From contig JAPNXP010000005.1 in assembly GCA_028753945.1 (NCBI GenBank), positions 3,782,001 to 3,846,000 of the forward strand: DNA of 64,000 bases, given 5' to 3'. The notes beneath the pieces were generated by a model. The model had not been told where the DNA came from. It was given only the letters and a program-made list of their open reading frames with translations, and ran no database searches. Each line of letters opens with the position of its first letter. The first letter of the stretch is position 1. Source of the DNA: Hexactinellida sp. DTS-2022. Taxonomy: Eukaryota > Porifera > Hexactinellida. A program made the translations under genes and the position numbers. Below are positions 1,602 through 37,781 of the stretch, piece after piece.

Positions 1602-1971
1602 CAGGGGCGTAGGAGTAGGCCCGCCAGGCCCGGCGCAAGCCGGACCAATAATTTCATGATGAATTTTTACAAAAGCTATAATGTTTAGTCGGATAGAATT
1701 TAAATTCATTTTGATAATATAATCATGATTAATCTCCATATTTTTGTAATATTATATTTGTGTTGATTACTACGTATTTTCTAAAATTTGCATTTAATTA
1801 ATTAACAGTGGAATAATTATCTTCATTTCACCAGGCTAATAGTAGTAAGGGCGCATAAATATTTATACTTAAGTGCATATCATGCATCGAAATTCATTTT
1901 TATATGTTTCATGTCCAAGCCGAAGTGGAGAAACCCGCCGGACCAATCGGTAATAGGTTCCTACGCCCCTG
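1602..1971. mobile_element. MITE with CAGGGGCGTAGGA ends
   Basis: Inverted ends CAGGGGCGTAGGA and TCCTACGCCCCTG bound 370 bases with no ORF. They resemble the ends of the hAT at 3637-6488 (CAGGGGCGTAACTAG). No clean target duplication is visible. It sits in the second exon of copy A; homology to copy B resumes at once afterwards. Confidence 0.7.
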
Positions 1972-2193
1972 CTTAGTGATACAATAATCAATGCGTTTTG
2001 TGTAAATTGACTTTATAACCGTTGCTATGAATGATTAAGGACTCACCCCTAAATAATTATTGTATACACATATTTACCAATATCAAATTTAGGACATTCT
2101 TAAAAATCAATATCCAAAAATATTGGGACTGCAAGATACGATCCTCTCACAGGTAATTGATCTAAATAACTTTATTCAACACTTATATTTACA

Positions 2194-3103: not shown

Positions 3104-3636
3104 TTAGAATCGTGGCTTTGTTAAGGCTCACTCAGGGTCAGTTCAAATCCATCATAATGGCTCTTTACATTGGGTTTGTTCTCGAATGGACCAAAACCAG
3201 TCTGTATTTGTTTATGATTCCCTGTACTGTAATCGTACGACAGAGGAATTTGATACTCAATTGGCCCTACTCTATAGTAGACAGGAATAAAATCTAAATA
3301 TTACAGTTTTCCCAATTCAACAACAAAGAGGGCCTTCAGATTGCGGACCTTTTGCACTTGCTGTGTGTACCGCACTTGCAGCTGGGGAAGATCCCACGAC
3401 ACTACGATGGCGCCAGGATAAGATGCGTTCGCACTTGATAAAGTGTTTCGAAACTGAAAATATTTCCCCCTTCCCTCTTATTCAATCACAGAGATTACAA
3501 ACAAAGATCTCGTTAAATCTGGAGCAAAAGTTGATAATTAAACTTTGGTGCTACTGTCATTTTCCAGCTTACTCATCTAAATTCATGGTTGAGTGTCAAC
3601 AATGTAAGACATGGTTTCACAAACCTTGCATTGGAC

Positions 3637-6488: not shown

Positions 6489-7906
6489 CATTGGACTACC
6501 AGATACTGTTATACAAGTAAAATAATTCAATTGTAATTAATGTCCTAGTAGTTAGTTTTAATAATAGACATTTTTGTAGATACATACAAGTGAATACTAA
6601 CTATTTTGGTTAATATATCTACCCTATCATTCCAACAAGCGATGAAATATCTTGTATTATATAACACATTCTGAATATTCATGTAAGTAATCTGAGTAGA
6701 AATCTTCCTCAAAGATGAAAAAAATTGTTAGCAAATTTGTGAGTTTAGGTTAGTTATTTCTTCTGTCTTTATTGAATTCATCCTACAGTATAAGATGCAT
6801 TGCATTTGTGGTTTTTCGTGTGAAATCGATCGATCAGAAAAGATGTATTTCGAAACAATTTTGGGTCCCTGAAAAGAATTCGATAAACATATTATATGCA
6901 AAAAAAGTGTGCATAAATTATAAGCTAAGTACCTGATAGTGATAGCTATATAGTGCATGTGGTATGTAAGTTGCAAGCATTTTCATAAATAATGATACTT
7001 GGTTGTCTCTTAAAAAGTGTCGAAAGGGTGTTGAAAATCGAAATGGTTGATTCCCTCTGTCTCATAATTTGAAACCCGTAACAAATTTTGTGTTTGTAGG
7101 CAATTACCAAAAAGTCCAGGAGAAAACCTCTGATGTATAGGATAAATTTTTGTACATGCTATACTTGATAGAACTGTTAGCCTCATAAACAGGTAATCTA
7201 ATTGGGATAAAAATAAGCATGTTGCAAATAGATTAAACAAGTTCACCAATTATACTATAATAATGCTACTTACTTGTAGTTTATATTGAAAGTTGGGAAG
7301 TAATTTAAATAATCAGAGTAGGAGCGTCGAATTCTACAAGTTTGCGACTCGGTTTGTGGAAAAGGTTATCTATTTTCAAATTTTACTTTTTAATAATCTG
7401 GCTGTAGTAGGATGTAAGATAAAATTCTCGTCTACTGGTAGTAAAGTGACAAGTACTAGTGATGTAAAGAATTGTTTCAAAATATGTATTTTGACATAAA
7501 TTGCTAACAAAAGTTTCCTGAGAATAGCTTTACCTTCAGATAATTGAACAACCAAGTTTATTACATCTTTAGTCAATAAGGAAAATTGGAAAAGTCCTGT
7601 AATGGGTTCTTGATGACAGAGGTGTCCTATTACCCTATATCTATTAGACGCCCATTAGTTTAGTATAGTTAGTATAAGTTAATAGTTAGAGTTTACCTAG
7701 GGTCGGTAGCAACAATTTAGTTTCTTAACTGTGTTCTATTAGACTGATTATACATTCGTAAGTTACGGTAAGTGAGTCACGGTGAGTCTCTCACAATCAC
7801 TTTCGTCGTTACAATAGTCTGGATGAATTAGAATCATCCTGTCATTGTTAGAACAGCTAAAGATAATATAGTCTGTTAATTCTTCAAATTCTATCGATGT
7901 GACAAT

Positions 7907-9752
7907 TAGGGTTTGCAATCCCGGGATCCCTATACATTTTCTCCCGGGATTCGAAGACCAATCCCGGGATTAAATAAAGTACTAGGAATCCTGATCAATT
8001 TGTTGTTGTTAATAAGTTATCGCTATTTCAGCCCAAATGAAGGGAGTGAGTATATACAACACACTACTCGTTTATCCTAGTAAGCTGATATTTTCAGTTC
8101 TAATTAGCGTTTATATGTAAGCTATTTTAAGACTACTAGTGCTCTAATATAAGGCTTCTAAGTACTGATTTTTTTTGAAATTCTATATTTAAGCTCCCAT
8201 ATAGAATAATATAGTACCAAAAGCTTAGTTCTGAAGAATTGAAAAAGATTACAAGGATCTGAATCACTCAAATCCATTCTACTACATCCCCTTGAGATTA
8301 GCTAGGAAGGTCCTAATATTAAAAAGTCAAATTTTTCATTTGAATTGCTCCTTTTTAGAAAAAACGGACGTTTTTTCACATTTGAGCCACATTCTTGCTC
8401 CCAAAGGTGTCTAGATTTTAATTAAGTACGAAATCGGACAATCAGAACTGTAGCAGGTCTAAGTATACTTATTATGGTGCTATATTCCAAATCTCAGCGA
8501 TAAAACTTCAAAAAGTTCCCCAAAACTAAGCTTTGAAATAGTGGCATGCTATAATTAGTTACGGTGGTCTTCAAGTGGCAGAGAGGATTTTCGACACGTC
8601 AACAGCGAAGAATATTGATTCGGGAAGGAATTAAAATCGGCCATCTTGCTGGAATACAATCACTAATAGTGTCTGAAAGTTAGAACTAAGCTCCAGTTAG
8701 CTTTTGAATTTGGATTTTCTCAATTATGATGATTACATGACACTCCTTATATGGGCATTCGAGATTATTAGCAAGGTAACCATTTGGTTTTGAGTGATTT
8801 TTGACTTTGCAATGATTTAGAAATGATATATCAATGTGATTAGTAATTTAGAGCTTAGATCTAGAGTCTCCCGTTTAGGAGATACAAATTTGCATGTGTC
8901 ATCAAAATTGGTCACATTCACACTACCATATAGGGCAATCTCGAAAACGGTGCGTCCTAGGCTCACAAAATGTATTATTCACATATGGGAAACCATGTGT
9001 TCTGATCATTTTTCACTAGTCTAACTTGAATTTATCTCTTTTCCTCTCTGAGTTACAAATTAGTTAAGAATCCGTACCCTGAAGACCGCCGAAAGGCTAT
9101 AACTTTTGCAATTTCCACTTTTATCTAAAAAAATTTTGTGCAAAAATTTTGTCAGACTATCATATGTCTGAATATTGAAACGTTGTAAATACAATAAATA
9201 GTTATTTTAACGTGGGCAACACCTTTGGAGTTATAAAACCGCGTTTTAATATTAAAAGCTGCTCTACTAAAACAGTCATAACTCTGGAAATAATGATCGG
9301 ATCGATGAAAACCCAAGTCCCCTCAATAGATACCATCCTTCCGCAGTGTCTGTAAAAATATCGTAAAAATCGGTGCAATTTTTATTCCTTATTATTTTAG
9401 GCTGAAATAGCGGTTAAGTGCTAACCACGTTACATTAATGCGAATCCTTTGATTTCATAATTAGATGTGTGAACTTAAACACGATGCTCAACAAGAATTA
9501 TCATATAGGATTCCAGGTGTTTACTACTAATTATCCTCTTTCATTATTTATACTTTTATTACTATTACACTCATTATACAGCATTAAAGTAATATTTAGA
9601 TCGATTAAGTTATGGTCCTTAAAAGTTGATTTCATTTATACTAGCTTTTCCATACTATGTTACGTGAAATGTTTAATCCCGGGATCCCGGGATCCCGGGA
9701 TTGAGTATCGGGTCAATCCCGATCGGGTCAATCCCCGGGATTGCAAACACTA
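7907..9752. mobile_element. hAT-type element with CCCGGGAT repeats, 1.85 kb
   Basis: Ends TAGGGTTTGCAATCCCGGG and CCGGGATTGCAAACACTA are flanked by the exact 8-bp duplication GTGACAAT (7899-7906 and 9753-9760). The word ATCCCGGGAT of the TIR is repeated near both ends (9680-9740 especially). No transposase was recognised inside. It splits the KDZ transposase remnant of copy A. Confidence 0.88.
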
Positions 9753-10354
9753 GTGACAATGTTATGGAAAAGTTGTTCGCAATCCAAGTTGAGCAATAAT
9801 CAATTAGTTGATTCCTCGAATCTGTATTTCTTATGAATACGCGCTCAATCATGGAATCGGTTGGTAGATTTGACCTGCATCATATTCATATTGGACTAGA
9901 CATTGTGGAATTTTTCTCACTGTCCCCATCATTATTCCATCTATAATTATAACATCTGGACTGTCTTGGCATTTGGGACAAGTGAATGTTTTAGAGTAGT
10001 CAGTGTCAATCATTCTTAAATAAGCATTCCATCCTTGCTGTATAATATGATAGAAGAATCTGAATTGCCTACCCATTCTAAAAAATTCATATATTAAAAA
10101 TGTCTAGGCGCTAGCGCCTAACCTACTAAGCGCTAGCGCCTAAGGTACAAGGCTCTAGCGCGTTAGGTATACGGCGCTAGCGTCTATACCATCAGGGAAG
10201 TTATTCGCTAAACTACTTGGAGCTCGGTGAAATAAATTATCCAATCTTTTTAAGAAAACACCGACGGCGAACTAGATTTTATTTGTATTTGTTATTTCCA
10301 TTTTTAATATTATAATAACATTATCCTAAGCCAAACACTAAATATAGATATACA

Positions 10355-10521
10355 CAGGGCCGGCGGAAGAGGGGCGGTTGGGGCGGCCTGGGCCGCCCCA
10401 CTTTTTCTGTGATTCTATTGGTACTTTGAAATTTCGCGGGCGTGGTTTGCGATACTGTTATACAAGGCCGCCCCACCTCTCACAAGGCCGCCCCACCTCT
10501 CACGAGCTTCCGCCGGCCCTG
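10355..10521. mobile_element. hAT-type MITE, 167 bp
   Basis: Ends CAGGGCCGGCGGAAG and CTTCCGCCGGCCCTG flanked by the exact 8-bp duplication GATATACA (10347-10354 and 10522-10529). The interior is GC-rich and palindromic. Confidence 0.88.
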
Positions 10522-10527
10522 GATATA

Positions 10528-10628
10528 CAGTAGAGCCTCTGAACAACGGACACCTTGGGAAAGGAACCGTTGTCTGTTATTTAGAGGTTGTCCGCTATTT
10601 GGAGTGTCCGTTATGGGAGGCTCCATTG
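10528..10628. mobile_element. pogo/Tigger-like MITE, about 100 bp
   Basis: Ends CAGTAGAGCCTC and GAGGCTCCATTG are flanked by TA. Ends of the type CAGTAGAACCTC with TA duplication are usual for pogo-like Tc1/mariner MITEs. It directly abuts the hAT MITE at 10355-10521. Confidence 0.65.
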
Positions 10629-10760
10629 TATCCTTAATTTATTTATAAAATTATATGACAATGAATCATTAAATAATTTTTAAAATGCTCTGAAATATAG
10701 GGATGAAACGAATATTCGAATTGTAAGGAACGAATATTCGAATAGCCGCTTCGTTTTGAT

Positions 10761-12373
10761 GGGCATGCCTAATTTCCGGGACGGGACGGGACGGAACCGT
10801 CCCGGAAAATCCAGGTACCTAAAGTACGGGACGGGACAGCCCGAAACCTCCCATATAGATCAAATTATTTATTCTACTGTAATTACGTTTGTATATTTAA
10901 ACAAATACGTACAAGTATCGTGAATAAAATAGAACCAGAAAATATTAAATCTTGGGTGAGGTTATTTTGATGTGGTTTTAACCTTTTCTGTGCAATTTCC
11001 TATATTGGGTGACCCAGATACTCTACTCCCCACCTAAATATGAACTTAATTCACAACATAAAAATGAATGTATATACGGTATCTCTTACAGGGCCGTAGC
11101 TACCAAAATAAAAATGGTCAGGTGAAACCTGACCAGTGGCTACGTCTTATACTAAGTATATAGTATTCTGTTGAAGAACTTAATAATTTAAAAAATGAGC
11201 AACCCATCTATCTGATTCATCATCAACATCGCTTAATCTTGACATTTCTCGATAGATACCGGTGTCAGGGAGATCCTGTTCCCCCGTGAAAATTGTTCCC
11301 CTCTTCCTAATAGAAAATATTGTTCCCCCGAACAGTATTCACTAGAAAATATTGTTCCCCCGAACAGTATTCACTAGAAAATATTGTTCCCCCGAACAGT
11401 AATCGCTAGTAAATATTGTTCCCCCGAACTGTATTCACTAGGGAATACTGTTTCCCCTTTAGTACAATAGTAATATTATCTCCCGTAGGTCCCGTACAGT
11501 ATGTTATATTGATATGACACAATCGAAAGTGAATTCGAGAAAATCCAATTACTAATAGTTATCCATTAATTAATTAAACAATTATAGAAACTAAACAGTA
11601 TTATGCATTATTCTGCATTTATCCATAACACAATGGAGAAATTCGACCATATTCCATATATGAAAGTAGACAACACATGTGTACTTTTGAATACCTCCAT
11701 ATTCGCCTATATCTTCCGGGAGGAAAGTATACAGCAGGGTGTTCAAAGACCGAGAAGTATGTAATAATAGGTAATTCAACTTTTCTACATATTCTAGTAA
11801 CCTTAGTTCCATTTTGTATTGAGGGGAAGATAATTTTCTAGTGAATCTGCACTGTTCGGGGGAACAGAATTTACTAGTGAATATTGTTCGGGGAACAAAA
11901 TTAACCAGGGGGAAACACTCGGGGGGTACATTATTCCCTAGGAAATATGGTGTGGGGAACAGGATTTCCTAGAAAATATTGTTCGGGGGAACAAAAAGAT
12001 GGGGGAACAGGATTTACTATGACACCGGCCAATCAAATTTCTAAAATTCTTTATGAAATAGTTGCACTTGTTTACTGGGCAAGCTTGGCTATGTGAGGAC
12101 CAGTGAAAGTGTTTTCCTCTAATTTGTTTCGAACTTAGCTTTGATCATAATAGTGAGGAGGCTCGACAATAATACTATAGCACGTAGAATTTATATAAAA
12201 TATTTCTCAGAAATTATATTTTATACAAAGGATCCATTCCCCACCAGTTAAGAACTACTGTTTTAGCCCATGTAATCGTAATTAATAATTTACTACTACC
12301 TGTCCCGTCCCGTACTTTAGGTACCTGGATTTTCCGGGACGGTTCCGTCCCGTCCCGGAAATTAGGCATGCCC
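10761..12373. mobile_element. Inverted-end element rich in GGGACGG words, 1.6 kb
   Basis: Ends GGGCATGCCTAATTTCC and GGAAATTAGGCATGCCC are flanked by the exact 8-bp duplication GTTTTGAT (10753-10760 and 12374-12381). About 80 bp at each end form an inverted repeat of GGGACGG/CCGTCCC words. The short ORF at 11591-11812 has no recognisable domain. A related fragment lies at 28270-28350. Confidence 0.85.
11258..12029. mobile_element. Foldback element with GTTCCCCCGAACAGT arrays
   Basis: Ends CCGGTGTCA and TGACACCGG. The left arm has four tandem units of about 40 bp containing ATTGTTCCCCCGAACAGT; the right arm has inverted degenerate copies (TGTTCGGGGGAACA). No clean target duplication. Nested in the 10761-12373 element. 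Confidence 0.65.
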
Positions 12374-12454
12374 GTTTTGATGACTAAGCATTAAATCAAT
12401 TTCAAGACTCAAATTATAGTATAAATAGTTTATTGTTAATTATTTTTGAATTTA

Positions 12455-12591
12455 CTTATCCACCGATCATCGGCGCTTGTATTAAATAACCCTGGCTACT
12501 TTCTACCGATGGTGATTTTTATAAACATAAAAAACAATCGGTAGAAAGTAGCGAGGTTTTTTAATACAAACGCCGATGATCGGTGGATAAG
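12455..12591. mobile_element. Palindromic MITE, 137 bp, TA flanks
   Basis: Nearly fully palindromic: starts CTTATCCACCGATCATCGGC and ends with the inverse, flanked by TA. A second copy lies at about 35972-36103. Confidence 0.75.
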
Positions 12592-13120
12592 TAAACTCAT
12601 TATTTATATGGTTATGTATTCGACACAAGTTAGTTATTACTCAGCTAGTTTGGGTAGGAATGTACATATACGATCTCTTCAATAGAAACAAAATAATATC
12701 CGTTTCAATCTAATATTCTTTCAATCAATTCGAAACGAAAATATGAATATTTGGTATTTTCGTTTCAGCCCTACTAATATCAAACTTTTAAAAATTGATA
12801 CATTAGATATACTTTTAGTTAATATTTTGCACGATTATGTTCATAATTTAATAATACAATATTCTCGGACGGACGGAGTGTAAAGTAGGGACGGACGGAG
12901 ATTATAAACAAATTATATATTTTATACTGTATGGCCTTATACTTACTTTTCATTAAGTATTCTTTACTTAGTTTGCACTAAGTTTCAGCTAACTGTCATT
13001 TAATTTAAAACTCAATATGCAGAATCAACATCGGCTGTATTTATGATTTTAATATTGTTGAAAGACAATCTTTATTTGCAAAACTTTCATTTCGATCAAT
13101 TTACAACTTTCGGAATGGGA

Positions 13121-15585
13121 AGGGACGTCGCCACTGGGCATGGAGGGCAATGCCCCCCCCAGGTAAAACTATTTGTAACTATTTCATTGTTCTGATCCAT
13201 TAATGCTATAAATTCAATTCAATGAATTCACACTTGCCAATCATTTGAGTCATATCCCTGTACGAGGCTCCAATTTTTCACTGTACATTGGTCAAGATCC
13301 ATGGACATTGGACACCCCAAATCTTTTTCTCGCTCGCTGCTCTCGCTCGTCTAAGAAGTAAATTTACGCTTATACAGACACAAATTACACTTTACAAAGC
13401 AATGTATTATGTGTGTCAAGATATACGATCATGTTCTTTATTAATATTGAATTTGACATAATCCAAAATAATCATTTAGGATCGGAGATAATATTTAATT
13501 ATATAGACTGTACAGGGAATTCCTGTACGCTTGAATAGGGATTGTTAATTTACACAAAACAAACTGCTATGTTTTGAAGGTGTAGGCATTTTTTAGGTAT
13601 TATTCGACAGACAATAAAAAAAAATTCCAAACTAGCAAGCAGATACAAATTTAATACATCCCTGAGCGCCTGGACAGAACCAGGGACTTCTTTAATATAG
13701 GGACTGTAAACTTCGTTCTACGGTAAAATTAGCGTAGGCCTAAAACAGTATTGTTACTTATTGATATCCCGTAATCCGCTAATGCTAGACATAGGAAATG
13801 TATTATTGTCGTATAGGAAGTCATATTTTGGGAGTCCAACGGTAATATTGGTTTATCGAAAATATTTGTGGAATGTAAGTTATGCGATTTTCACACCCTT
13901 CCATATATGGTAATATTGTTAAAATCTCGAGATTACTTAGCTTTATACATATGAAATGTATCATTTTCGTACAGGAAATCATATTTTGGGAGTCCAACGG
14001 TAATATTGGTTTATCGAAAATATTTGTGGAATGTAAGTTATACGATTCTCACACCTTTCCATATATGGTAATATTGTTAAAATCTCGAGATTAGTTAGTT
14101 TTATACATATGAAATATATTATTGGCGAATTGGAAATGGGAATTCATATTTAGGGACTCAGTAGATCACATTGATTTACCTAAGGCGTTCCCCTTAGCCT
14201 ATATTATTATTTTGGCACTCTCCATAGGAGGATTGCCCCGACCCTGTTTTGTAGTTTAGCTAATTCTTACATTATTAAAAAATCTTGATAAGTTTCTTTC
14301 AAATCTATATTTAAATCAATGTTGTCCAATAAAATGTATTAAGTGGTGATGAGAAATGGATTTAGGACTACATATTCTGATAAAATTCAAAAAAATTTAA
14401 TACTTTATACATTAATTTCCCAATAACTCTACTGTTATTCAACAGACCGGCTAACTGGTTAATAAAATCTCTAATCGTTAACCGATGTCAGCAACGGTAA
14501 CCGGTTAACCGAATCCAGCCTTGTTGTTTTTTAATAAACAACATAATCACAGATATCTGATATGTAAGTATTAGCTAAACTACAAAACAGGGTCGGGGCA
14601 ATCCTCCTATGGAGAGTGCCAAAATAATAATATAGGCTAATGGGAACGCCTTAGGTAAATCAATGTGATCTACTGAGTCCCTAAATATGAATTCCCATTT
14701 CCCATTCGCCAATAATATATTTCATATGTATAAAACTAACTAATCTCGAGATTTTAACAATATTACCATATATGGAAAGGTGTGAGAATCGTATAACTTA
14801 CATTCCACAAATATTTTCGATAAACCAATATTACCGTTGGACTCCCAAAATATGATTTCCTGTACGAAAATGATACATTTCATATGTATAAAGTTAAGTA
14901 ATCTCGAGATTTTAACAATATTACCATATATGGAAGGGTGTGAAAATCGCATAACTTACATTCCACAAATATTTTCGATAAACCAATATTACCGTTGGAC
15001 TCCCAAATATGACTTCCTATACGACAATAATACATTTCCTATGTCTAGCATTAGCGGATTACGGGATATCAATAAGTAACAATACTGTTTTAGGCCTACG
15101 CTAATTTTACCGTAAAACGAAGTTTACAGTCCCTATATTAAAGAAGTCCCTGACAGAACAAACAAAATGGTTGAAATCCCTATAGTGTACAGAAATCCCT
15201 ATACCGTTGACAGGAATAGACTGTTAGTAATCTAGTTTCACCTTATAGGATATTCCTATTTATTTGGCAATTTTGGTTCTAACTTCCAATCAACAAACCC
15301 AATACATCTTTTACTTTAGAACTTTTACCTGTCAAAATTGACTTTTACCTGTCATTATAGCTAGTAGATATTCTGTAGTATATGCTAGGATTGCTAAATT
15401 CTTGTTACTGTATTTGATTTTTGTAGGTTACTTTTCATAGTTTAGAAAACATTAAACTAGAAAGTTTCACCTCAATTGCCTAGTTTTGGTAACATCAACT
15501 GTTAGATCTAACACCAATATAATGTTCCCCCCCCTGGAAATTTATATGCCCCCCCCCCTAGATTAAAAATCCTGGCGACATCCCT
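13121..15585. mobile_element. MITE with AGGGACGTCGCCA ends, expanded by a nested foldback
   Basis: Ends AGGGACGTCGCCA and TGGCGACATCCCT; the flanks agree only at 6 of 8 bases (GAATGGGA, GAATGACA). Its terminal sequences match the compact 287-bp copy at 27582-27868, so the extra 2 kb are later insertions, chiefly the element at 13681-15151. Confidence 0.65.
13681..15151. mobile_element. Long foldback element, 1.47 kb, 8-bp target duplication
   Basis: Two arms of about 600 bp (13681-14290 and 14575-15151) are near-perfect inverted copies around a 285-bp spacer. Each arm holds a tandem pair of about 165-bp units. Flanks are the exact 8-bp duplication GACAGAAC (13673-13680 and 15152-15159). Ends start (C)AGGGACTTC. 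The spacer contains GGTTAACC-type words. No gene is present; the two mirror-image 70-codon ORFs are a by-product of the palindrome. Confidence 0.88.
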
Positions 15586-15801
15586 GTGAATGACACAATC
15601 ACTTTTAATAATTGAGGCTGAAACAACTCAGTGAGTCTAACCGACTAACCCAGGAATGAATCTTTCCATATAGACTGATCGTTATGTTTTCATGCAACTA
15701 CTGTAGTACACGAAATAGTTAAGTTTTCTGAATCGACCCACTTACAAATCACTTTCTATTCCAACTAGACTACCCAAATGTAATCATTTCTATATAAGAC
15801 T

Positions 15802-16320
15802 GAATTTACTTCGGTACTTGGCTGTATCGATGGTACCTATGTACAAATCGTTGCACCTACAGGTAATGAAGAAATATTAGGACACATGAAGAATGATTCA
15901 ATGAACACTAGATAAATATCCAGGAAATATCTGATGATAATTCGAAGTTCATTGATCTTGTTGAGAAATGGCCAGGAAATATGATTCATTTATTTGGAGA
16001 CAATTGGGAGTAAACCATAAATTTCCAACAATGATTTACCAATTGTAAATGGATTGTTTCTCGGTGACTACTATTTGTCCGTTACGTCCCAACTTATTGA
16101 CTCTCATATGTCCAATATAGCTGCTAGAGTAGAGGATATACAATCGTGCTTTCCTCAAGACTCGCAAAACAATTGAGTATTCCCGTTTTGAATTTGGAAG
16201 AGTCGATGGAAATCATTGCATAGAACGGGAGGAACATTACATTAGGTTTCAATGGTAGTTATAGCAACATTGAATTACATATTGTTAGCATTGCCCATAA
16301 TATATAATGGAAAATCGAAT
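15802..16320 (+). pseudogene. PIF/Harbinger-type transposase remnant
   Basis: Translated across frame changes, the segment shows VLGCIDGTYVQIVAPT (the first catalytic Asp block of DDE_Tnp_4 transposases), KFIDLVEKWPGNMIH and then FLGDYYLSV. The order and spacing match PIF/Harbinger transposases. Stops and frameshifts are frequent, and the C-terminal motifs are faint. It is a fossil inside the large intron of KDZ copy A. Confidence 0.55.
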
Positions 16321-16441
16321 TGTCCCAGAAATCGAAGATATCCAAGAAGATATCCAAAACATATTGATTCTATGACCAGTGGACAACTAGTGCGTCAATT
16401 AGTTATTTAATAATATTTTAATTGGCACATGTACAGGACGC

Positions 16442-16700
16442 CAGGGGCGGCATACCCGGTACGGCTGGTGCGGCGAGCGCCGTACCACTTTTCAGGATAG
16501 TCAGCTTTGCTGTACCACCTAAATTAACAATTCATTGATAATTTAATGATTTAATAATTAATAATAGCAGAATGTTATTCAAATAACTGGTGCAGCGTCG
16601 CCGGACCATATACGAATACCTGGTGCAGCCTCATCGGGCCACATACAAATATTGTAAAATACTCCGCCGTACCACTTTCCTAAAAGACTTGCCGCGCCTG
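16442..16700. mobile_element. hAT-type MITE, 259 bp
   Basis: Ends CAGGGGCGGCATAC and GCCGCGCCTG flanked by the exact 8-bp duplication CAGGACGC (16434-16441 and 16701-16708). Interior has repeated GGTGCGGC/GGTGCAGC words. Confidence 0.88.
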
Positions 16701-17814
16701 CAGGACGCTGATTTATTATGACTAGGGCCTAGTTAGGCTAGTTAGTGACTAGTTAGGCGCTAGCGGTTAGTAGGTTAGGCGCTAGAACTTAGCGCCTAGT
16801 CATTTTTAATAGCTCAAAAAATTTACTGTTTTTAGCCCTAAATTAGGAATAGAAAATTAATTCCTATCGAACAAATGCCCACTATTTGTAACTTATAGGT
16901 AATAAAACAAACAGTACCATTAGTTATTACCTCAAAAAGCTGTGAAGTGGATTTCGGGATAAAGTCATCAGTTCACTAAATTCATAGAGTAATGCGAAAT
17001 GAATGAAATAGTGATTATTTAGGTTTAGTAAAAGAAACCGTTGCCCTTCAAAAACGCTTTGGCAATGACAAGGTCCTCTACATCGAGAACTGTAAACTAA
17101 GTGAATAAAATAGATAAATGAAATCTTGAACAAATTTATATATATACCTTCGTCAATTAGTAGCAAAATATGTATTTCCCTTGAATAAAATTAATTAATT
17201 AACTTAGTTTACCTTTATGTCCTTTAAGGTCAAGAATGTCATTATCCATATAGACTATGCCCCTGTACGTTGTAATGTTGAGTCTTTGAATGCATAGCCA
17301 TTATTACAATCCTTGGCTTCCGGATATAAATCGACTGGTAGAGTGAATCCTTTGGAAAGTTGTTCAGAGTACACTGAAGCCAGATTTTCATCCAATATAT
17401 TTGGAATGAGTAGAGTAGAAATTGTCGAATATTTTTCAGTTGTTGTAATATCTATTGGATTGGTTTCTGCTTCCAAATCCGGAAGAATCTTTTTTAATGT
17501 AGATACTTGTTTGCATTAATTATTGCAACTCTCACATGTCCATTTATTTTCGGTGCAAACGAAACAATGAAAGTAGAATTATCCGTTAAGAAAATAGTTT
17601 TATGATCTATGGAGTAGAAAGTTAGATTGTCCTTCTGGTCTGATAGGGTATTTTCTCGAATTATTTCTGAACAATTTTCAAAAGCTTGGTAGTGATAGCA
17701 TCATTGGTAAGGCATTTCAAGCATACATTCTCTAGTCTATCAATTAGAAATTTTTTCTTCTTAATTTGTAGTTTACATATTTAATTATTCCATTATATTT
17801 AAACATCTATGTTG

Positions 17815-17945
17815 CAGTGCAAACGCGAATGTACACGCGTTCACACCAACTTGTCTGGTGTACACGCGTTCACATGGTGTAAACGCGAGATTTTATTAAG
17901 TTTAGTTAATCTCGCGTTTACACAAGTGCAAACGCGAGATTGGGG
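17815..17945. repeat. Cluster of inverted GTGTACACGCGTT / AAACGCGA words
   Basis: The words GCAAACGCGA, ACACGCGTTCACA and their complements occur several times within 130 bp. They probably form a small MITE or a foldback core. Its position coincides with the end of recognisable KDZ copy A sequence. Confidence 0.4.
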
Positions 17946-17970
17946 ATTTATTATACTTGTGGTTCATTTA

Positions 17971-18977
17971 GCTATACTATTAAAACACAAGCCTGGGTGG
18001 GTGTATATCAGAGATGCAGCGGTCCGGAAATTTCATGGACCGGACCGGACCGTCATGATTTTTTCTGGACAGTCCGGACCGGTCCAGACCGTATGATCAA
18101 AATATTGGATCGGTCTGGACCGGTCCAGACCGATGAACCGGTCCAGACCGATGTACTGGTCCAGACCGTTATATCCCTTATTTGGACCGTTACAGACCGC
18201 AAAGTAGGGTGGATAATTATATCCACTTGTGTTTATAAGATACTTATTACTTATGTGCTTGTAAACAATGGGTAATAACGGATTTGAGCCCGATCGCTTG
18301 TCCAATCTAGGATGAGTCCAGACCGATGAACGGTCCAGACCGTTGAACCGGTCCAGACCGATGGACCGGTCCAGACCGTTATATCGTTAATTTGGACCGG
18401 TCCAGACCGCACTTGAAAACAAGCAGACCGGACCGACCTGAGACCGGTCGGTCCGGTCCGGTCCCGGTCTGGACCGCAGTCCGGTCCAGACCGCTGCATC
18501 TCTGGTGTATATATATGTTTGTTTGTATGTTACGAGTTGATTGAAGAAAGTGGACGGTTTCCAAATGTGATTTTTGGCATATAGGGGTAACTTTTGGCAC
18601 CCGCCAACAAGTTGAGGTTTCCACTCAAAATTTCTCACACCTCGACAAGTTATGACGTCATTGTCACATTTAGAGAACCCTGAAAATTCACTTAATCGCA
18701 AATAATTCGCGCCCTGTACGAGATAAAAATTTGAAAAATTAATACAACATGTACATTTATCATGCGGACACGTTGGTCACACCAGATTACCAATATGCTT
18801 ACTCATTATCGCACGATGACGTAATCATTAAAATTTCACATTGTTAAATTTGACTATTTAGGCCTATTTACGCTTTATAATCAATATTAGGAGTATATAA
18901 ACCACACACCAACCGCGAAGCGGTTGGTGTGTGGTTGTGTTCTTCCGCGAAGCGACCTAGCATGCGAAGCGCGCTAG
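17971..18977 (+). mobile_element. Helitron H1a, non-autonomous
   Basis: The 5' end has CTATACTATTAAAACACAAG. The 3' part has a 15-bp-stem hairpin (CCACACACCAACCGC with a GAA loop), then further GCGAAGC hairpins and CTAG followed by T. CTRR ends with a preceding hairpin and no target duplication define Helitrons. Without the nested MITE (18009-18504) the element is about 0.5 kb and matches H1d (62199-62659) along its length. No Rep/Hel protein is encoded. Confidence 0.85.
18009..18504. mobile_element. hAT-type MITE made of GGACCGGTCCAGACCG arrays
   Basis: Ends CAGAGATGCAGCGGTCCGG and its inverse are flanked by the exact 8-bp duplication GTGTATAT (18001-18008 and 18505-18512). The interior is almost wholly repeats of CGGTCCAGACCG and CCGGTCCAGACCG in both orientations. 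It inserted in Helitron H1a near its 5' end. Confidence 0.9.
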
Positions 18978-20148
18978 TTATAAATAAACCTCATGATGGA
19001 AGTGATTCTGTTATCTACCTGCTTTTACATGATAATCTGTAATTATACCAAAATTGGATCGATAGAGCTTCCATTGTTGAGTTGTTGCCATTATAAGGTG
19101 AATATATTGATTAATTAACGGAATTTCAATTGAAACAGTATTATAATAATGGCTGGTATCTTCTTCAGAATCTTCTTCAGAATTGATTTCACTTTTTCTT
19201 GGGCATAGAAGATCTCAGGCGATTATATTTTTTTGAGAATTAATTAATTGAAAAATATATTACTTACAAAACTCAATTTTAAGATTTTGAGGATTAAAAT
19301 TCGACTAAATTGTTCAAATTGAGGTTGGGATCCTGTAATTCTTAGTGTAGATATAGTAGCCAGGGTAGCCTCTTCTCCTTCGAGCTTAAGTTTTTTCTGT
19401 TTGCAAGTCACTTTTAGAGTAGAAATATCCATACTAGTGTAAAACTATAAGCTCTAAAACAATCTGAGATACAGTTTCCTAATCAGACACACGTTTGGAT
19501 AGGAAATACGTGTCGGATTAATGTGAATTCCGGATAATAGGGGGTCAGATCACGCTTGTTCTACTGTAATGAGATACAAAATTAAATAATTTACATTTCT
19601 TTGGGACTATATTGGATACTATACTTGAACCAAAGTCGATCCATATATCTGATGACAAAGATGCTAGCAATCGTAAAGAATGCCAAATTGTAGGCACATG
19701 TTGTGTACTTTTCAATATCCTATGCAGATTGTTAGGCGCATGCGCCCAGGTGGTTAGGCGCATGCGCCCAGATAGATAGGCGCATGCGCTCAGTACTTTA
19801 TAATATATGATAAAAGGATATATATATATATGATATCACTACAAGATATACGATGAAAATATCACTTCAATCCAAGTGATATGATACTGATTAATATATC
19901 TCGATTTGAAAAAAAATAGATATGATATATATATCATGGTATATTCAAAGCCCTGGGGGCAACCATTCAATTCCTGTACTTTTGAACTTATTATTAATCA
20001 AAGGTCATCTAAAATTAAAGGGGGTTGTAACCCCCCCACCCATAAACCTGGATCCGTCGCTGTTTATTACATTACATTTTGTCGTTATGTAATGGTTATA
20101 ACAAGCTACCGTCTGCCTACGCGCGTCCTTACATTTTGTACTCGGACT
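18978..20148. other. No gene recognised; GGCGCATGCGCC triplet at 19732-19795
   Basis: This interval has no supported coding sequence. A threefold tandem of about 22 bp containing TTAGGCGCATGCGCCCAG lies at 19732-19795. The word is built like the GGCGCTAGCGCC ends of the element at 10093-16810. AT-rich ATATAT runs follow at 19800-19940. Confidence 0.5.
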
Positions 20149-29599: not shown

Positions 29600-29947
29600 G
29601 TGTATATAAATATTTGTTTGTATGTTCCGAGTTGATTGAAGAAACTGGACGGTATCCAAATGTGATTTTTGGCATTTAGGGGTAACTTTTGGCCCCTGCC
29701 AACAAGTTGAGGTTTCCACACGAAATTTCTCACACCTCGACAAGTTATGACGTCATTGTCACATTTCGAGCACCCTGAAAATTCACTTAATCGCACATAA
29801 TTCGCGCCCTCTAAGAGATAAAAAACTGAAAATTTTATAGAACATGTACATTAATGATGCGGACACGTTGGTCACATCAGATCACCAAAATGCTTACTCA
29901 TTGTCGCGTGATGACGTAATCATTAAAATTTCACATTGTTAAATTTG
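29600..29947 (+). mobile_element. Helitron H1b, middle segment
   Basis: From TTTGTTTGTATGTTCCGAGTTG to CACATTGTTAAATTTG this matches H1a and H1d. It is cut by the KDZ transposon at TAAATTTG (29940-29947), continues at 37767-37787, and its 3' end is found inverted at 47203-47320. Confidence 0.8.
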
Positions 29948-29959
29948 GAGTTATTAAAA

Positions 29960-30075
29960 ACTACTATTCGCATGCTAATAAGTTACTATTCGCATGCTAA
30001 TAAGTTACTATTCGCATGCGAATAAGATACTATTTGCATGCGAATAAGCTATTATTCGCATGCGACTAGTAATTT
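29960..30075. repeat. Left subterminal array of KDZ copy B
   Basis: Five units of about 22 bp, each (A)CTATTCGCATGC(G/T)AATAAG; the palindrome GCATGC is at the centre of each. The inverse array occupies the right end (37450-37490 and 37690-37750). Confidence 0.85.
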
Positions 30076-30556
30076 TTAATAAGTTATGATAAAGTCTCTA
30101 ACAGGACCTTAGTCTCCTCAAATAATAATTCATTATTAATGCTATAGACCTGTGGCTAAATATGTTAATTAAATTTATTCAGTTTTATAGAAGCCAATAT
30201 AGGTGTAATAAATATACAAGCTTCGTCAGAGAATTGTTTTTTAGATAATTTTTGTAGTATGATTTCTTCACATCCACTCAACTTCTGTTACATTCTACAC
30301 CAATTTTATACATTTTATAATCTAATAGGCGTGTGTGTACGTTGCAGTTTAATTAATTAATTAATCAAAGTCTACTTATTATTACGGATTCAACATTGAA
30401 TTTATCTATTTCCCATTGATCTAATTATTTAACATTTGACTATTTGAGATGTCAAGAATGAATAGGAGAAATGCCCGAAATATTCTCTTGAAAGTATGTG
30501 ATCAATTTCACAAAGTCACTGGTCAAACTGTGGGAATCACTTATACATGGGCAGGA

Positions 30557-31682
30557 ACATGGGCGTAAATCCTGGGGGGGACGGGGGGACGCGTCCCCCC
30601 CACTTTTTGGAGTGGGGGGGGACACCTATATTAATTGTCCCCCCCCACTTTTTGTCAGGATTGGATTCAAGTACAGTTGTACTTAAGTACTGTTTCAACA
30701 AAATTTTACTCGCATCAAGTGATGAAGAAGGATTTGAGAAATTAACGGATCATAGATTCTTTTTGCATTTTGCGTAAATAATCTAATAATATAATAATAT
30801 AACAGTATTTAGAACGCTTTACACTTGTGTCCCAAAGCGTTTACAGTTCAAAAGGATACAGAAAGAATTATAGTACGTAAGTTAACAGTCCAAAATATAC
30901 ATTACAGAAATAGAAATGATCTAACTTATTCTTCATATTATATGTCCAAAAAGTGAGAAGAATAAAGTCTTTTATCCATGTCAATAGGTAACATCTTGAG
31001 TTTATTCTTCTCACCTGGGTTGTAATTACTCGACTTCTTAATTAAACAGGATATAAAGGTAACAAGTATTGTCCACAATATGACTTCCATATACTATTAG
31101 CCAGGCATGGGGCCAAGCCCCAAAGGGCTTGGCCCCATGCCTGCCCATTTTAGAGAGAATTAAATCCGGACTTATGTCCTCCTTTAATAAAAGGGCTTAC
31201 GTCCGGACATGGACTTTAGCCCTTTTTAGATGAGCTTCAAGCTCTTTTCAAGGCACTTATTCAATAAAATATGGTATGTACTGTATTTCTAAATAATTAG
31301 AGTTTAAGTCCGGGCTTAAGCCCTTAATTAAAGGCTTGAGCATGGACTTAAGCCCTTTTTGAAAAGGGCTTAGAAAAATGGCTTAGGCTTAAGCCCTTCT
31401 GATAAGGGAAGGGCTTGGATTTAAGCCCTTTTGAAAGGGCTTGACACCATGTCTGCAGTATTAGTTTTCCAACGTTCTAGATAAGTCCATAAGCTGCTCA
31501 CAAAAAATGGATCGTGACCGATGTCTCGAAACAATGGTATTCCAAAGTGGGCGATCCATGGGTGCCAAAATCGACCTTGATCAATCTTGAGCGGCTGGGA
31601 ATTAATCTTTTTGGTACGGGCAAGTTTCTCTCCCCAACTGTGAAAACGTCCCCCCCACTTTGTAAGATGGATTTACGCCCTT
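30557..31682. mobile_element. hAT-type element in exon 1, 1.13 kb
   Basis: Ends ATGGGCGTAAATCC and GGATTTACGCCC are flanked by the 8-bp duplication GGGCAGGA (30549-30556 and 31683-31690). Removing it rejoins the frame TWAG-SLDIF. The interior holds the 135-bp dispersed repeat (30782-30918) and the AAGGGCTT MITE (31101-31456). No transposase. Confidence 0.88.
31101..31456. mobile_element. MITE of AAGGGCTTAAGCCC words, 356 bp
   Basis: Ends CCAGGCATGGGGCCAAGCCC and GGGCTTGACACCATGTCTGC are flanked by ACTATTAG / AGTATTAG (8 bp, one mismatch). The interior repeats AAGGGCTT and AAGCCCTT many times. Confidence 0.8.
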
Positions 31683-32821
31683 GGGCAGGAAGTCTCGATA
31701 TTTTCGGAACATCTAACTTCCGCAACATCATTGAAAGCAAAAAAGATTAAATTTGGAGGAGCTTAACATTCCAAGGCAAAGAAGTTCCCTGTATCAAACC
31801 ACATATGGATAGAGAAATGTTTGACCAATTACAGGGAAATATCGAACAATTGAGTGTAGTGAATTTGAGAAAAGTTGTTTCATGGGCCACTCAAAAATCA
31901 ACAGGTTTGTAAATTATTAATTGTAGAATATATTTTTAAATGCAGAATTATAAATTCTAACCATCCATTTTAGGACGCGCCAGAAGTTTTTGGGGTGATC
32001 CACATTTAAGGCCCTCCTGGTGGCCAGAGAAGACTCCTTTCGTATGTATTTCGAGAAACACTAAAAATAATAAAATTACCAAAGAGGTATTAATAAACAT
32101 ATTAAAATGTTATAAAGAGAGCATTGGGTTGAATGAAAGTAAAGATAATTTTTCAGCAAGCACTCCTTTAAAACGCATCAATGCAGATTCTAATATTCCT
32201 CCATTTGCTAAGAGGTTTAAATTAGATGACAACATTTCTGATACTAGTTCATTATTTGGTGGATTACTAAATACTCCGGAAAAGGGTACAATTGAAACGC
32301 CCCAATTTATTCAGAAACATGAAATCTCCACTAAACATTCACCTTATACACCTCGCCTTTGGACTTCTCAAAAAAGGAAATCAATTACTCAAACAACGAT
32401 AAACAAATGCCTCAAAGAACTGTCAAATCCAACAACTTTAGTAACCGATATTACCATACATACATACTGCGTAAGTCAATATTTAATAATAGTGCATTAG
32501 AGATATTCCGGTTATATAGCATGTAGTTTGGTCAAATATTGTTTATTTATATGACAAGTTTATGTATTCCGAGGATGACAATTATTATCCTTACAATATA
32601 CATTAGAACACAATATAAACACGGTTCACACGAATTTCGGATAAGGCGAACAAATTTTGACCGTCCCCTGATGTTCTTATTGTCGAGGTTCTACTGTACG
32701 TATGTAGCATTTCCTTTGCAAAATATCTTATTAATTGTGTATCACTCTACTTATTATATTTAACTTATTCTCCCATAGAAAATTCTTCAGAATAGTTATC
32801 CATCAGTGAAAGGATTGCAGG

Positions 32822-32987
32822 CAGTGGCGGTCCCAGGGGGGGGGCATCCGGGGCAAATGCCCCGGGTCAAAATATTTTGCCCCGGATTCCAACCCAATTG
32901 GTAGTATAATTACATGGAGCATGCCCCGGATTTATATTAAAAGCTGCTCTTTTGCCCCGGGCTGGCCAGATCCTGCGACCGCCCCTG
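32822..32987. mobile_element. hAT-type MITE, 166 bp, in exon 3
   Basis: Ends CAGTGGCGGTCCC and GCGACCGCCCCTG flanked by the exact 8-bp duplication ATTGCAGG (32814-32821 and 32988-32995). It splits codons GLQ|D of the Ulp1-linked exon; the same residues are contiguous in copy A. Confidence 0.92.
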
Positions 32988-33918
32988 ATTGCAGGATCCA
33001 ATAATGTCCCAGGTATATTATATACTACTCTTAAATATATTAAGAGCTCTCATTTATACTTGAACTATTTTTAGAAATTGAAATTTAGAAATCTAAAGGA
33101 GAAAGATTTAGCCATCCAAGTCCATCATGATGGAAATATTCATTGGGTTTGTTCTAGCTACGATAATAAGCTGGAAAGGGTATTTCTGTATGATTCTTTG
33201 AATAAAAAGGAAACAACAATGGAACTCGACACTCAACTAGCTCAGATATTTGGAACACCTTCAATGCAGTTGGATGTTACAGTGCCTAGAATTCAAACTC
33301 AGTCAGGAGGTTATGATTGTGGACTTTTTGCATTGTCTTCAGGGACCTGCATTGCAGCTGGAATTGACCCAATGTCTCAAACATGGGATAAAAAAAAAAT
33401 GAGAGCTCATTGTATAAACTGCATAAAGAGTGGGATTGCATCTCCTTTCCCTGCCAGTACGCGCGGGTTACGTCAGGTAAGCTTCCACAATCCCGCCAGT
33501 ATACAGTTGATCTGATCTGTGACTGTAATCTACCCGAGTTTGCATATAATATTACACCAAAAGGAAATGCTATTACACTTGTGATACAATGCGAAAGGTG
33601 CACCATGTGGTTTCATAACCATTGTTATGGCCTTTCAGATACATCAGTAGATGGAGTCTTTCTATGCAGATCTTGTTCTAAATGAAGTCAATTACAATAT
33701 TAATAAATACAGTATTTTAGCACTTACGATGGTTTTAAGACTGCTCTGAATCTAGATTATTGATAGACATTACGTATGTATAGTCTTAGTATACGTATAT
33801 CAAATAATAACAATACATTATGTTTCATTAATTTATCTATACTGATATTAAGAAATAATCTTTACTAATTGACATGATCTGTAACTATTATCATTCTTTT
33901 GATTATACAATGGTTAAA

Positions 33919-36900
33919 TTAACTCATAACTTTGAAATCCACTGTTTTTAGCTTATTCCAACAAGCTAAAAAATATCTTGTATTGAAAAAGACATTGTCT
34001 ATTCGCATATATGCAATTTGTGTTGAGATGCGTCTTAATGCAGAGAATAGTTACTCGCAAATTTGAGAATTAGTCTTTCGAATTTCTTCTGTGTCATAAG
34101 TTTTCATAGAAAATATTGGATCGCAGCAATGGTTTCTGTTATGAAATCTATCAACTAAAAACGTAGTCTTGCTAAATAACGCTGGATCCCTAAAAATGTA
34201 ATTCAAACTATTTCGAAAAGAGTATACATTATCATGTTATCAAAAACTCAAATAATATCCTATAAATATCTGAAAACTTATCAAAGTAATACTTCATTGA
34301 ACACGTTGTGCAGAGGTTGCAAGCGTTATCATATATTATAACTTCAGGTGGATATTCAAATTTTCTCAAAAGCATATTGTAGACCATTATTGTAGACTCG
34401 CGGGAAGACATGATTTCAAAACCATAACAACGTTGATGTTTACATGTCATTACTAACAATCCAGGAGAAAATATCTGATGCTTTGGGTAAACTTTGGTGC
34501 ATCTGGACAAAGATTCATTACAACTATCCTCATATTTTGGTATCCTACAAGTAAATGTACAAGTAATCATTTACACACAAAAGGAACACTCTAAAGTCGT
34601 TGAACTTCAAAAAATTACTTTTCAATGCTGGAAAGTAGCTGAAAAAGTCCAATTGTGAAGAGGGTATTGTTTTCAATATCGCTCGAGATTTATGTTTGAT
34701 GAGATTATTTATTTTTTTAAGTATTGCATACAATAGCTGAGCAACTTCAGGGTGCAACGTGATATTCCCATTATCTATTTCTGGAGGAATTGAATGTATA
34801 AGAATTTCTAGACTATACGTTTTTTTAAATACAGATGTTAAGTCGCGAACTTCAGCAGATTTTCCTAAAGACAGCTCTGAAATAATTTTCCTTCCATTTC
34901 CATTCAGTGCAGACACTCTTATTAGGGCTGCCAATGTTTCACATCGTGCTAATAAATTTATAACTTTGGTAACACCATGTAAGCCTGGATCTACAATGTT
35001 CAAAGAGCCATGAACTTTAGTGGTGATATTCAAATAAGTAGCAAATTCAGGGGTTTTTAAATTAGATAACATGCTATCAAAGATAGATTTGTTAACTCCA
35101 AATTCAGCATAAATCTTAAGCATTTCACGCATTTGAGAATCACCAACAAATATACGGTCAGTCATAGGTATTATAGGAAAGATTTGTTCGGTGTCTACTT
35201 GATTTGAAATATCTGGCAATTGTTTGGTAATACCCATCGCAATCCCATCTAAGACAACTATTGAAGGCCGATCTTTACAAATAGGACAAGTAAAACTTAA
35301 TTAATAATCTATATCCATCATTCTTAGATAGCAATTCCATGCTTGCTGGAAGATATGGTACTTGTACATCAGTTCTCTCCCCATTCTGATAAGCTTGTTA
35401 TTCTTGGCCCTACATTGATTAATATATTAATTAAAGATCAAATATATTATACTAGCACATGTTTTTATTCGGATTATAAGTAAAATAAATTAGTCAATCT
35501 CCCTAAGTAACCTCATGAGCCAACACTTAATGGGAGTAAAGGGATTAAAAAATTTGTTATATCACATGCCAGTGATTCTTAACATTTTCAGTGAAATTTC
35601 TCACGTTAGACAAGCCAATCACTCTTTTCCTACCTTAATATGATCTTCAGTCAAAACGTTATACTACGAATATATCTCATCTAATATCTCAGTAGAGTTT
35701 TTTATAAACAAGGGGGACATAACTATACTGTCATCTAACAAGACTTCTGGACATTAAAAAATCGGTAATTCTTAGCCACTCAATTATGATTGTGCCACTT
35801 ATTTACTGGCCGGAAAATGAGGGGCCTCTAATTTGTTTAGTATTGTGAGTGTTCGCGAGGAGGGTCGAAAATACAACACGAAGAGTTTATAGAAAATATT
35901 TATTACGTATAAACTATATTTTCCCCAAAGCTCTATTTCCCACCGGTTAAGAAGACTGGTATATACATCAGTTTGTATTTAAAAATCTCGCTACTTTCTA
36001 CCGATGATGTTTTTTATAAACATAAAAAAACAATCGGTAGAAAGTAGCGAGCTTTTTTAATACAAACGCCGATGATCAGTGCTACCGATGATCGGTGGAT
36101 AAGTATTCACATACATTTAATACCTTAAGAAGCTATAAAGAGGATTTCTTGAAACAGTCATTAGTTCACTATACTCAAATAGGAGGCCCTTGTGAACCAA
36201 ATATTTATTATTTATATTCATCAAGAGACTACTGTGGCCTTGATAATCAGTTCTACATTGACAGCAACCGTTGCAAGTTGAACTGTATACTACAAGATTA
36301 GATTCATTAACAGCATAAAATGAACACTGTAATTTAAAAATATACGCAAATAACTATACCATTGTGTAGCTTGTACTCCCGAACTTCGTTTTCTAGATAA
36401 ACAATTATCCCTGTTTGTTCTAATTTCACATTTGATGCGAGGTATTCATACCCATAAGGACACCTTTGGAGAAGATCTTCGGGGTATAAATTGTTAGGAA
36501 GATATAAACCGGATAATAGTTGTTCTTTATAAACCTTTGAAAGAGATGGTGGCAGAGTAAACGGGATCGGAGTACTCGAAATAGATTTTGATTCAGTTTT
36601 CGGATTAAAGTTATTAGCTACCGGGGGAGAAATATGTTCATGGAGGCTATTTATTATTGATTTAACTTTGCAAACTTTCTCACAAGTTTCACAGTACCAT
36701 TTATTCTCTTGGAAGCAGTATACATGACTTCCTGTGCCAATATTGTCAATCAATATTATATGAGCAGTGTCTACCATATAGCATGCTATAGTTAAGCATC
36801 TATAGTTTCTAATGTTATCAGACATTTACACTGTTCATAGGCTATGCCGTGAATACAATCAGATGATTGACATGTTTTGCAAAATTGTTTCTCTAAATCC

Positions 36901-37392
36901 AGTATTATGAATCTTTTGGACAATAAAAGTTTCCCTATTTGGACAATCCAAAAGTAAAATATACATAGTAGTAATTGGTTTATTAATGTTAAATTTTATC
37001 TGAAACTAACCTTGATTCCATTTATAATCTTCAAAGATGACCGCGTTTGATTGAGATAAATTAAAAAATATGGAATCCTTTAAGAGGAGGCTTATATATT
37101 GATCAAGGATTGATATTTCAACGCTAGCTAAACCATGTTCATCTTGGCAGTCATCTTCAAAGGTCGTCTGTAATAATTCTATTCTTGCTAATTCTGTAGA
37201 AATGTCAGTTGAAGTCGGATAATATAACGAATTGAATTTAGTCAAAGATTGGCCTTGCGAAGAATTTGGAGTTGGTAAATGTGATATCTGTATCGAACCA
37301 ACATCAATTGATTGTAATTGGGAAATTATTTCCTCTTGAACGAGTTTACGTTTCTTATGGGTTGGATATACTGTTGAGAATTGTTGATACAT
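33919..37392 (-). pseudogene. KDZ transposase of copy B
   Basis: Exon 1 (37392-37011) starts at ATG and ends at a GT donor. The next part (about 36985-36335) has a cysteine cluster (FCKTCQSSDCIHG, WYCETCEKVC) and a region ending EYKLHNG. The exon 36289-36124 encodes STCNGCCQCRTDYQGH and EYSELMTVSRNPLYSFLR. From 35395 come FTCPICKDRPSIVVLDG and the long ORF 34545-35237. The core KDZ block lies at 34232-34570 (IFSPGLLVMTCKH, PEVIIYDNACNL) and in the exon 34189-33919 (TTFLVDRFHNRNHC, KTNSQICE). YDNAC and DRFH are hallmark KDZ motifs. In-frame stops (in DIDY|LSF and after SQICE) and frame changes show it is no longer intact. It is convergent with the gene at 30449-33685. Confidence 0.85.
35972..36103. 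mobile_element. Palindromic MITE, second copy
   Basis: Matches the element at 12455-12591 (CTACTTTCTACCGATG and inverse; right end GATCGGTGGATAAG before TA). The left end is truncated. It lies in an intron of the KDZ transposase gene. Confidence 0.7.
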
Positions 37393-37497
37393 TTCTTGAA
37401 AGATATTTACGAAACTAATACTGCAAGATGATAATTAATAAGGAAATAGCAACGCTTATTCGCATGCGAATAGTAAATTATTCGCATGCGAATAGTA

Positions 37498-37684
37498 CAG
37501 TCGAAACCGGTTTATTCTAACACCGGTTTTTTCTAACTAATCGGTTTTTTCTAACTAACGATTTATTTTAAACGTGTAAGAAATTCCAATTTTGTGTTAT
37601 TTTCAATCGGTTTATTCTAACTATCGGATTTTTCTTACTTTATTTCCATGCAAAGAATTGGTTAGAAAAAACCGGTTTCGACTG
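37498..37684. mobile_element. Tc1/mariner-type MITE in the right TIR of KDZ copy B
   Basis: Ends CAGTCGAAACCGGTTT and AAACCGGTTTCGACTG flanked by TA, with GGTTTATTCTAAC words inside. It interrupts the right GCATGC array. Confidence 0.82.
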
Positions 37685-37781
37685 TAACTTATTAGCATGC
37701 GAATAGTAACTTATTAGCATGCGAATAGTAACTTATTCGCATGCGAATAGTAGTTTTTAATATATGTAAATTTGACTATTT

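Follow-up and report, generated by a model that had tools for sequence, protein, structure and literature searches.

The 64,000-bp stretch of glass sponge DNA analyzed here (the window; Hexactinellida sp. DTS-2022, contig JAPNXP010000005.1, positions 3,782,001 to 3,846,000) contains a bounded KDZ (Zisupton-type) transposon with two convergent genes, one encoding a KDZ transposase and the other a partner protein in which an NRF1-like DNA-binding module is joined to a Ulp1 (C48) peptidase and a PHD finger. The element, designated family A, spans 29948–37766 (7819 bp) and is flanked by identical 8-bp target-site duplications (TAAATTTG, at 29940–29947 and 37767–37774), and its inverted GCATGC-rich arms (29935–30030 and 37684–37779) are 91% complementary, in agreement with an initial annotation, made from the sequence alone, that had described a bounded KDZ element with an exact duplication and inverted ends. 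A search of the genome (112 Mb, 18 contigs) returned three sister copies on contigs C4, C18 and C2 (loci L009, L010 and L011, respectively), each in different flanks, with longer aligned pieces 96–98% identical; much of the KDZ gene is missing from L009. Three segments of the window copy (30558–31683, 32822–32987 and 37498–37684) are absent from all three sister copies. The first two, bounded by 8-bp target-site duplications (GGCAGGAA and ATTGCAGG, respectively), appear hAT-like from their ends and duplications and are insertions within exons of the partner gene rather than the introns of the initial annotation; the third is palindromic, apparently with a TA duplication, and splits the repeat array of the right end. 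The 48 bp to the left of the element (29900–29947) are part of another dispersed repeat present in more than 20 copies (96–100% identity), and Rfam and tRNA scans of the 64-kb window gave no match.

The partner gene lies on the plus strand and comprises four exons with GT–AG introns. Exon 1 (30449–31904, interrupted by the 30558–31683 insertion) encodes the first part of the NRF1-like region, including the equivalent of NRF1 R206; exon 2 (31974–32470) the WWPE-containing DNA-binding part and a linker; exon 3 (32779–33012, interrupted by the 32822–32987 insertion) the start of the Ulp1 domain; and exon 4 (33075–33685) the C48/Ulp1 catalytic core and the PHD finger. Both genes of the window copy are broken, the partner gene because of the two exon insertions and one base missing near 33473, and the KDZ gene because of frameshifts. 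The plus-strand frame is frameshifted in L009 and open in L010 and L011, so that copies with an open partner gene do exist elsewhere in the genome; in L010 the last PHD cysteine is altered. The spliced 496-aa translation of L011, used as the Pfam query, scored above the cut-offs for all three domains that had been recognized initially: Nrf1_DNA-bind (PF10491; 35.3 bits, E 1.3e-8, residues 39–146), which places the NRF1 assignment on a significant profile match, Peptidase_C48 (22.1 bits) and PHD (26.6 bits against a cut-off of 24, with PHD_2 at 30 against 28). The His, Asp, Gln and Cys of the Ulp1 domain, the predicted catalytic set and already read as complete in the initial annotation, are unchanged across three aligned families, and the PHD finger is nearest by sequence to that of PHF2, the fingers of PHF8 and BPTF also being among the closest. 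The top matches of a PDB sequence search with the partner protein were NRF1 structures (8k4l and 8k3d). In protein searches, full-length family A as a single query matched only two Ulp1/PHD proteins, and its residues 1–160 gave no match at E ≤ 10. Structure prediction of exon 1 alone reached a mean predicted local distance difference test (pLDDT) score of 60, that of a protein from the glass sponge Oopsacas minuta a mean of 39 and usable only at about residues 83–151, and a Foldseek search gave no match below E 0.001, the three top-ranked chains being NRF1.

The KDZ transposase gene runs on the minus strand (33922–37392), is frameshifted in the window copy and is open in L010. It encodes an N-terminal CxC4 cysteine cluster (28.6 bits against a cut-off of 26.9) followed by the motifs YDNAC and VDRFH and a glutamate within NSQICEQ. 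Its identification as a KDZ gene holds at 34.5 bits against PF18758 (cut-off 26.6) for the three L010 exons joined, single exons scoring below the cut-off.

At the ends, GCATGC recurs within 22-bp iterons, the palindromic cores of which are of the NRF1 type. The window copy of family A has five iterons per side (ACTATTCGCATGCGAATA), in a left array at 29963–30075 and a right array at 37455–37756 that is split by the 37498–37684 insertion; the full CGCATGCG is kept in five of these ten iterons and the other five have GCATGC with one half changed. Overall, GCATGC occurs 22 times in the window against 7.7 expected, and 13 of these occurrences sit in the arrays of family A and of a second KDZ element, family D, whose right end (19732–19809) carries three perfect copies of the NRF1 consensus GCGCATGCGC (PMC10810270) at 19736, 19758 and 19780, where 0.02 were expected in the whole window. 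Iterons of this kind recur in other families of the genome, with GAGAGCATGCTC in family B (C11 and C14) and TAGGCGCTAGCGCCTA in family C (C13 and C11), and perfect NRF1 sites are present in families D, E, G and H. Eight families share the core GCATGC, family C having GCTAGC instead, so that GC..GC is common to all nine, and between families the core remains constant while its spacers vary. The outermost bases also vary little from family to family, with GAG.TATTAAAAA or a near variant at one end and CATATATTAAAAA or a near variant at the other, and the 8-bp target-site duplications, read by eye from the flanks, agree at 8/8 bases in six insertions and 7/8 in four. In families A, E, F, G, H and I, the NRF1-like gene has its start codon 89–391 bp beyond the last GCATGC of the array. 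The start of the KDZ gene lies immediately inside the opposite array.

The family D element occupies positions 1–19809 of the window and its left end lies outside it, no such end being found in the 3.5 kb upstream. Its partner gene is on the plus strand (1003–3635, with NRF1-like exon 2 at 1003–1158 and the Ulp1/PHD part at 2096–3635; exon 1 was read from another family D copy), and its KDZ gene, located by tblastn, is on the minus strand (6596–19166) and split by a nested element at 10088–16815. The nested element (6728 bp) has iterons of the family C type, together with an 8-bp target-site duplication (AATTTTTT), and is probably non-autonomous, since no convincing KDZ or NRF1-like match was found inside it. 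Apart from the host NRF1 gene and the three family A copies, Nrf1_DNA-bind was matched at six other loci (three on C11 and one each on C14, C13 and C1), of which five contain exons matching both genes within inverted ends, the match at the C14 locus being to the last KDZ exon only. A convergent Ulp1–PHD gene adjoins the KDZ gene at 7/7 KDZ loci found by Pfam, and PF18758 was above its cut-off at 6/7 other loci. Nrf1_DNA-bind was likewise above cut-off in families E, D, H and I and just below it in family G (22.7 against 23.5). Family E has six sites on one side and three on the other, with the KDZ gene starting from one end and the NRF1-like–Ulp1–PHD gene from the other. Loci E11a and E11b have their flanks in common and probably arose by duplication of a single insertion. 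At C11:9487718–9495542 (L032 and L033) a family C element adjoins an open reading frame that may encode a Helitron replication/helicase protein.

Genome-wide, the end arrays far exceeded controls in which the motif was reversed without complementing it. Three GCATGC at 19–24 bp spacing gave 478 matches against 2 (overlapping triples are included, and the figure is therefore no count of elements), pairs of perfect GCGCATGCGC gave 150 against 0, and GCTAGC arrays gave 19 against 0 (a simple repeat accounts for one of those listed), as compared with 1 against 3 for the comparison palindrome GCCGGC. Searches of the genome with the protein domains of families E and B returned at least 146 and at least 166 matches, respectively, both exons being counted. 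Arrays and genes were compared on contig C1, where GCATGC triples were listed to 10.18 Mb and GCGCATGCGC pairs to 17.40 Mb. All eight array pairs 3–8 kb apart enclosed an NRF1-like match (random mean 0.067, maximum 4 in 20000), and in the first 10.18 Mb a listed array stood no more than 1 kb from six of the 12 NRF1-like matches (random mean 0.04). There were ten pairs closer than 8 kb in all, and the two shortest, of 1.2 and 1.5 kb, enclose no NRF1-like match. The families entered the analysis by different routes: the repeats of element A were known from the outset, protein matches led to families B, C and D before their motifs had been read, and family E, which is counted among the eight pairs, was selected from the site list and its gene found afterwards. 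Because array and exon were already known to co-occur in F, G, H and I when these four families were selected, they contribute sequence and were rejected as independent proof.

In human NRF1, R206 contacts the site at its centre, N242 at position 3, and R244 at positions 4 and 5 (PMC10810270). The R206 equivalent is present in all nine families, N242 in five (B, E, G, H and I) and an R or K at 244 in four (D, E, G and I), families A, B, C, F and H having S at 244 with a basic residue at 245. The families with N242, and human NRF1, all have G at site position 3; residue 242 is C in families A and F, whose sites have T and C at position 3, respectively. A corresponding code between R244 and position 4 was rejected, as no relation was seen: families I and H run counter to it, and the base A occupies position 4 in both B and I. 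A residue code is thus hinted at for one position and not seen for another, and overall only partly supported by these alignments. Binding of human NRF1 to the family A core TCGCATGCGA and the family B core GAGCATGCTC is only weak in published measurements with other flanks (Table 2 of PMC10810270). The host NRF1 gene (L014, 1018–2541; single exon, 507 aa; Nrf1_DNA-bind 176 bits) encodes a protein that retains R206 and N242, with K at 244, and that has diverged strongly from human NRF1 (38% identity over the part compared).

The presence of NRF1-type palindrome arrays at the ends of several families suggests recognition of the element's own termini. We consider it probable (about 0.77) that the NRF1-like module of the partner protein, as predicted from these sequences, binds the ends of its own element, much as TnpA does in CACTA elements. 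The KDZ protein of this two-gene DNA transposon is the DDE transposase, and the NRF1-like module, as a dimer, would bind the palindromic 22-bp iterons at both ends, where the bound partner protein could mark and pair the ends for the transposase and probably also regulate the promoters adjoining the arrays. At the bound ends the Ulp1 domain might strip SUMO from the transposase or from host factors and the PHD finger might read histone H3. The KDZ DDE domain, cysteine cluster, terminal inverted repeats and 8-bp target-site duplication are shared with known Zisupton/KDZ elements, from which the present ones differ by the NRF1-like partner gene and by ends made of NRF1-type iterons, neither of which figured in the papers listed by the literature search; the duplication is 8 bp in Zisupton and 7 bp in Kyakuja (PMC12730594). 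With NRF1/EWG/P3A2 the module shares the PF10491 domain, the R206 equivalent and palindromic sites of the GCGCATGCGC type, whereas here it is encoded by a transposon, fused to Ulp1 and PHD, present in many divergent families and often changed at N242 and R244. The CACTA transposase and DNA-binding protein are not known to be related to those of the KDZ elements here. The likeness to CACTA/En-Spm lies in a second element protein for repeated end motifs, which diversify by family (binding in the present case being a prediction); in CACTA, the subterminal repeats are reported to be recognized by TnpA, TnpD serving as the transposase (PMC2613891). Among the papers listed by a full-text literature search, mostly of journals outside subscription, no title or abstract describes this NRF1–KDZ system or its three-domain partner gene, in line with the novelty that had been supposed for the latter.

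Several observations weigh against end binding. Of the 26 NRF1-like matches on C1, only nine have a listed array no more than 1 kb away (random mean 0.08), the array lists being partial; the eight enclosing pairs represent five families (E three times, F twice, and D, G and H) and hence are not independent; and six of nine unpaired array clusters on C1 have no NRF1-like match within 100 kb. The NRF1-like locus on C1 (E1, C1:14549328) has neither flanking inverted ends nor a KDZ match; at the remaining five of the six other NRF1-like loci the two genes are linked, and the two-gene layout of the initial annotation is supported overall. In family J, chosen because no listed array was nearby, the 601 bp upstream of the exon (L063, C1:1382930–1383530; exon at C1:1383532) showed no repeated palindromes and instead a non-palindromic 19-bp direct repeat; five other matches of like score and length occur elsewhere, and the iterons may have been lost or lie farther off, or the exon may belong to a host gene family. 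Families C and D lack N242 and yet have G at position 3 (6/36 = 0.17, calculated by hand), and, as regards a dimerization domain, the exon 1 profile gave a collinear alignment with host NRF1 at only E 0.041 and a probability of 1.3%. Finally, since the two genes are convergent, both arrays are promoter-proximal, and position alone cannot separate end binding from a promoter role, which lowers our confidence in end binding and raises that in an explanation through the host protein. The arrays would then be promoter sites that recruit host NRF1, and the NRF1-like part of the element would have another role or would compete. Such recruitment would fit the perfect NRF1 sites of families D, E, G and H, the existence of a host NRF1 with R206, N242 and a K at 244, and the start of the two genes at opposite ends, each beside an array; NRF1 is also reported to activate mouse intracisternal A-particle (IAP) retrotransposons (PMC12420836). 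It would nevertheless leave the NRF1-like domain encoded by the element unexplained, and the poor fit of the family A and B cores to human NRF1, together with the two short array pairs that retain arrays at both ends and enclose no NRF1-like gene, favors a role in end binding, so that we regard recruitment of host NRF1 as unlikely.

The initial annotation had favored another function, in which the NRF1-like, Ulp1 and PHD parts serve to direct insertion or to govern the element's chromatin. The resemblance of the PHD finger to those of PHF2, PHF8 and BPTF and the retention of the Ulp1 catalytic residues are consistent with this, but the NRF1-type iterons at the ends point to the termini instead, and neither GCATGC nor GCGCATGCGC occurs in the flanks of three family A copies (284–414 bases per side), which indicates that the sites belong to the element and not to these targets. 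As the main function, insertion steering or chromatin control therefore appears very unlikely; either may be an added role. It is more unlikely still, to the point of being scarcely credible, that the GCATGC enrichment reflects base composition or a tandem repeat unrelated to the protein. The iterons are indeed tandem repeats, which kin families could inherit without selection, but the excess over the reversed controls, the single match of GCCGGC arrays, the constancy of the core amid spacers that vary by family, and the linkage of arrays and genes on C1 all speak against this.

In a phylogenetic tree the nine families fall on one side and host and human NRF1 on the other (support 100/99), which does not support orthology of the module with NRF1, a deep split that is also reflected in identities of 29–55% among the families and 16–28% to host or human NRF1. 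The tree is unrooted and has no outgroup, of its eight inner branches five are open, and the row for host NRF1 was flagged as a long branch, so that the direction of descent cannot be read from it. A recent capture from NRF1 of this host was rejected and is unlikely, given the 16–24% identity to host NRF1 and the separate clade. Animal NRF1 might descend from a KDZ terminus-binding protein, the promoter palindrome GCGCATGCGC then being an ancient transposon iteron whose protein was tamed; we hold this to be possible though doubtful. Conversely, a KDZ element may have captured NRF1 together with its site preference before the families radiated. A profile search revealed relatives in Oopsacas minuta (P0003 and P0004, and the shorter P0005, P0006 and P0007), of which P0003 (493 aa) is 59% identical over 99% of the family E sequence. 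PF10491 was matched in all four of those scanned, above cut-off in P0005 and P0007 and at 23.0 and 21.6 bits (cut-off 23.5) in P0003 and P0004, respectively; in the latter two PHD was just below its cut-off, and C48 gave a weak match in P0004 only and none in P0003. These proteins are named as hypothetical, PHD-type, NRF1-domain or Calcium-responsive transcription factor, with no reference to a transposon, and the passages available of the Oopsacas genome paper, which assigns 15.44% of the genome to DNA transposons, leave them unmentioned (PMC10280926).

The present findings link an animal transcription factor to a transposon superfamily through a common domain and a common type of DNA site. 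They provide KDZ elements with a candidate end-binding protein, end recognition being unexplained in the literature passages available on these elements, and they make the origin of NRF1 testable. With many families of diverged proteins and sites in one genome, the glass sponge elements constitute a natural experiment on the change of DNA-binding specificity.

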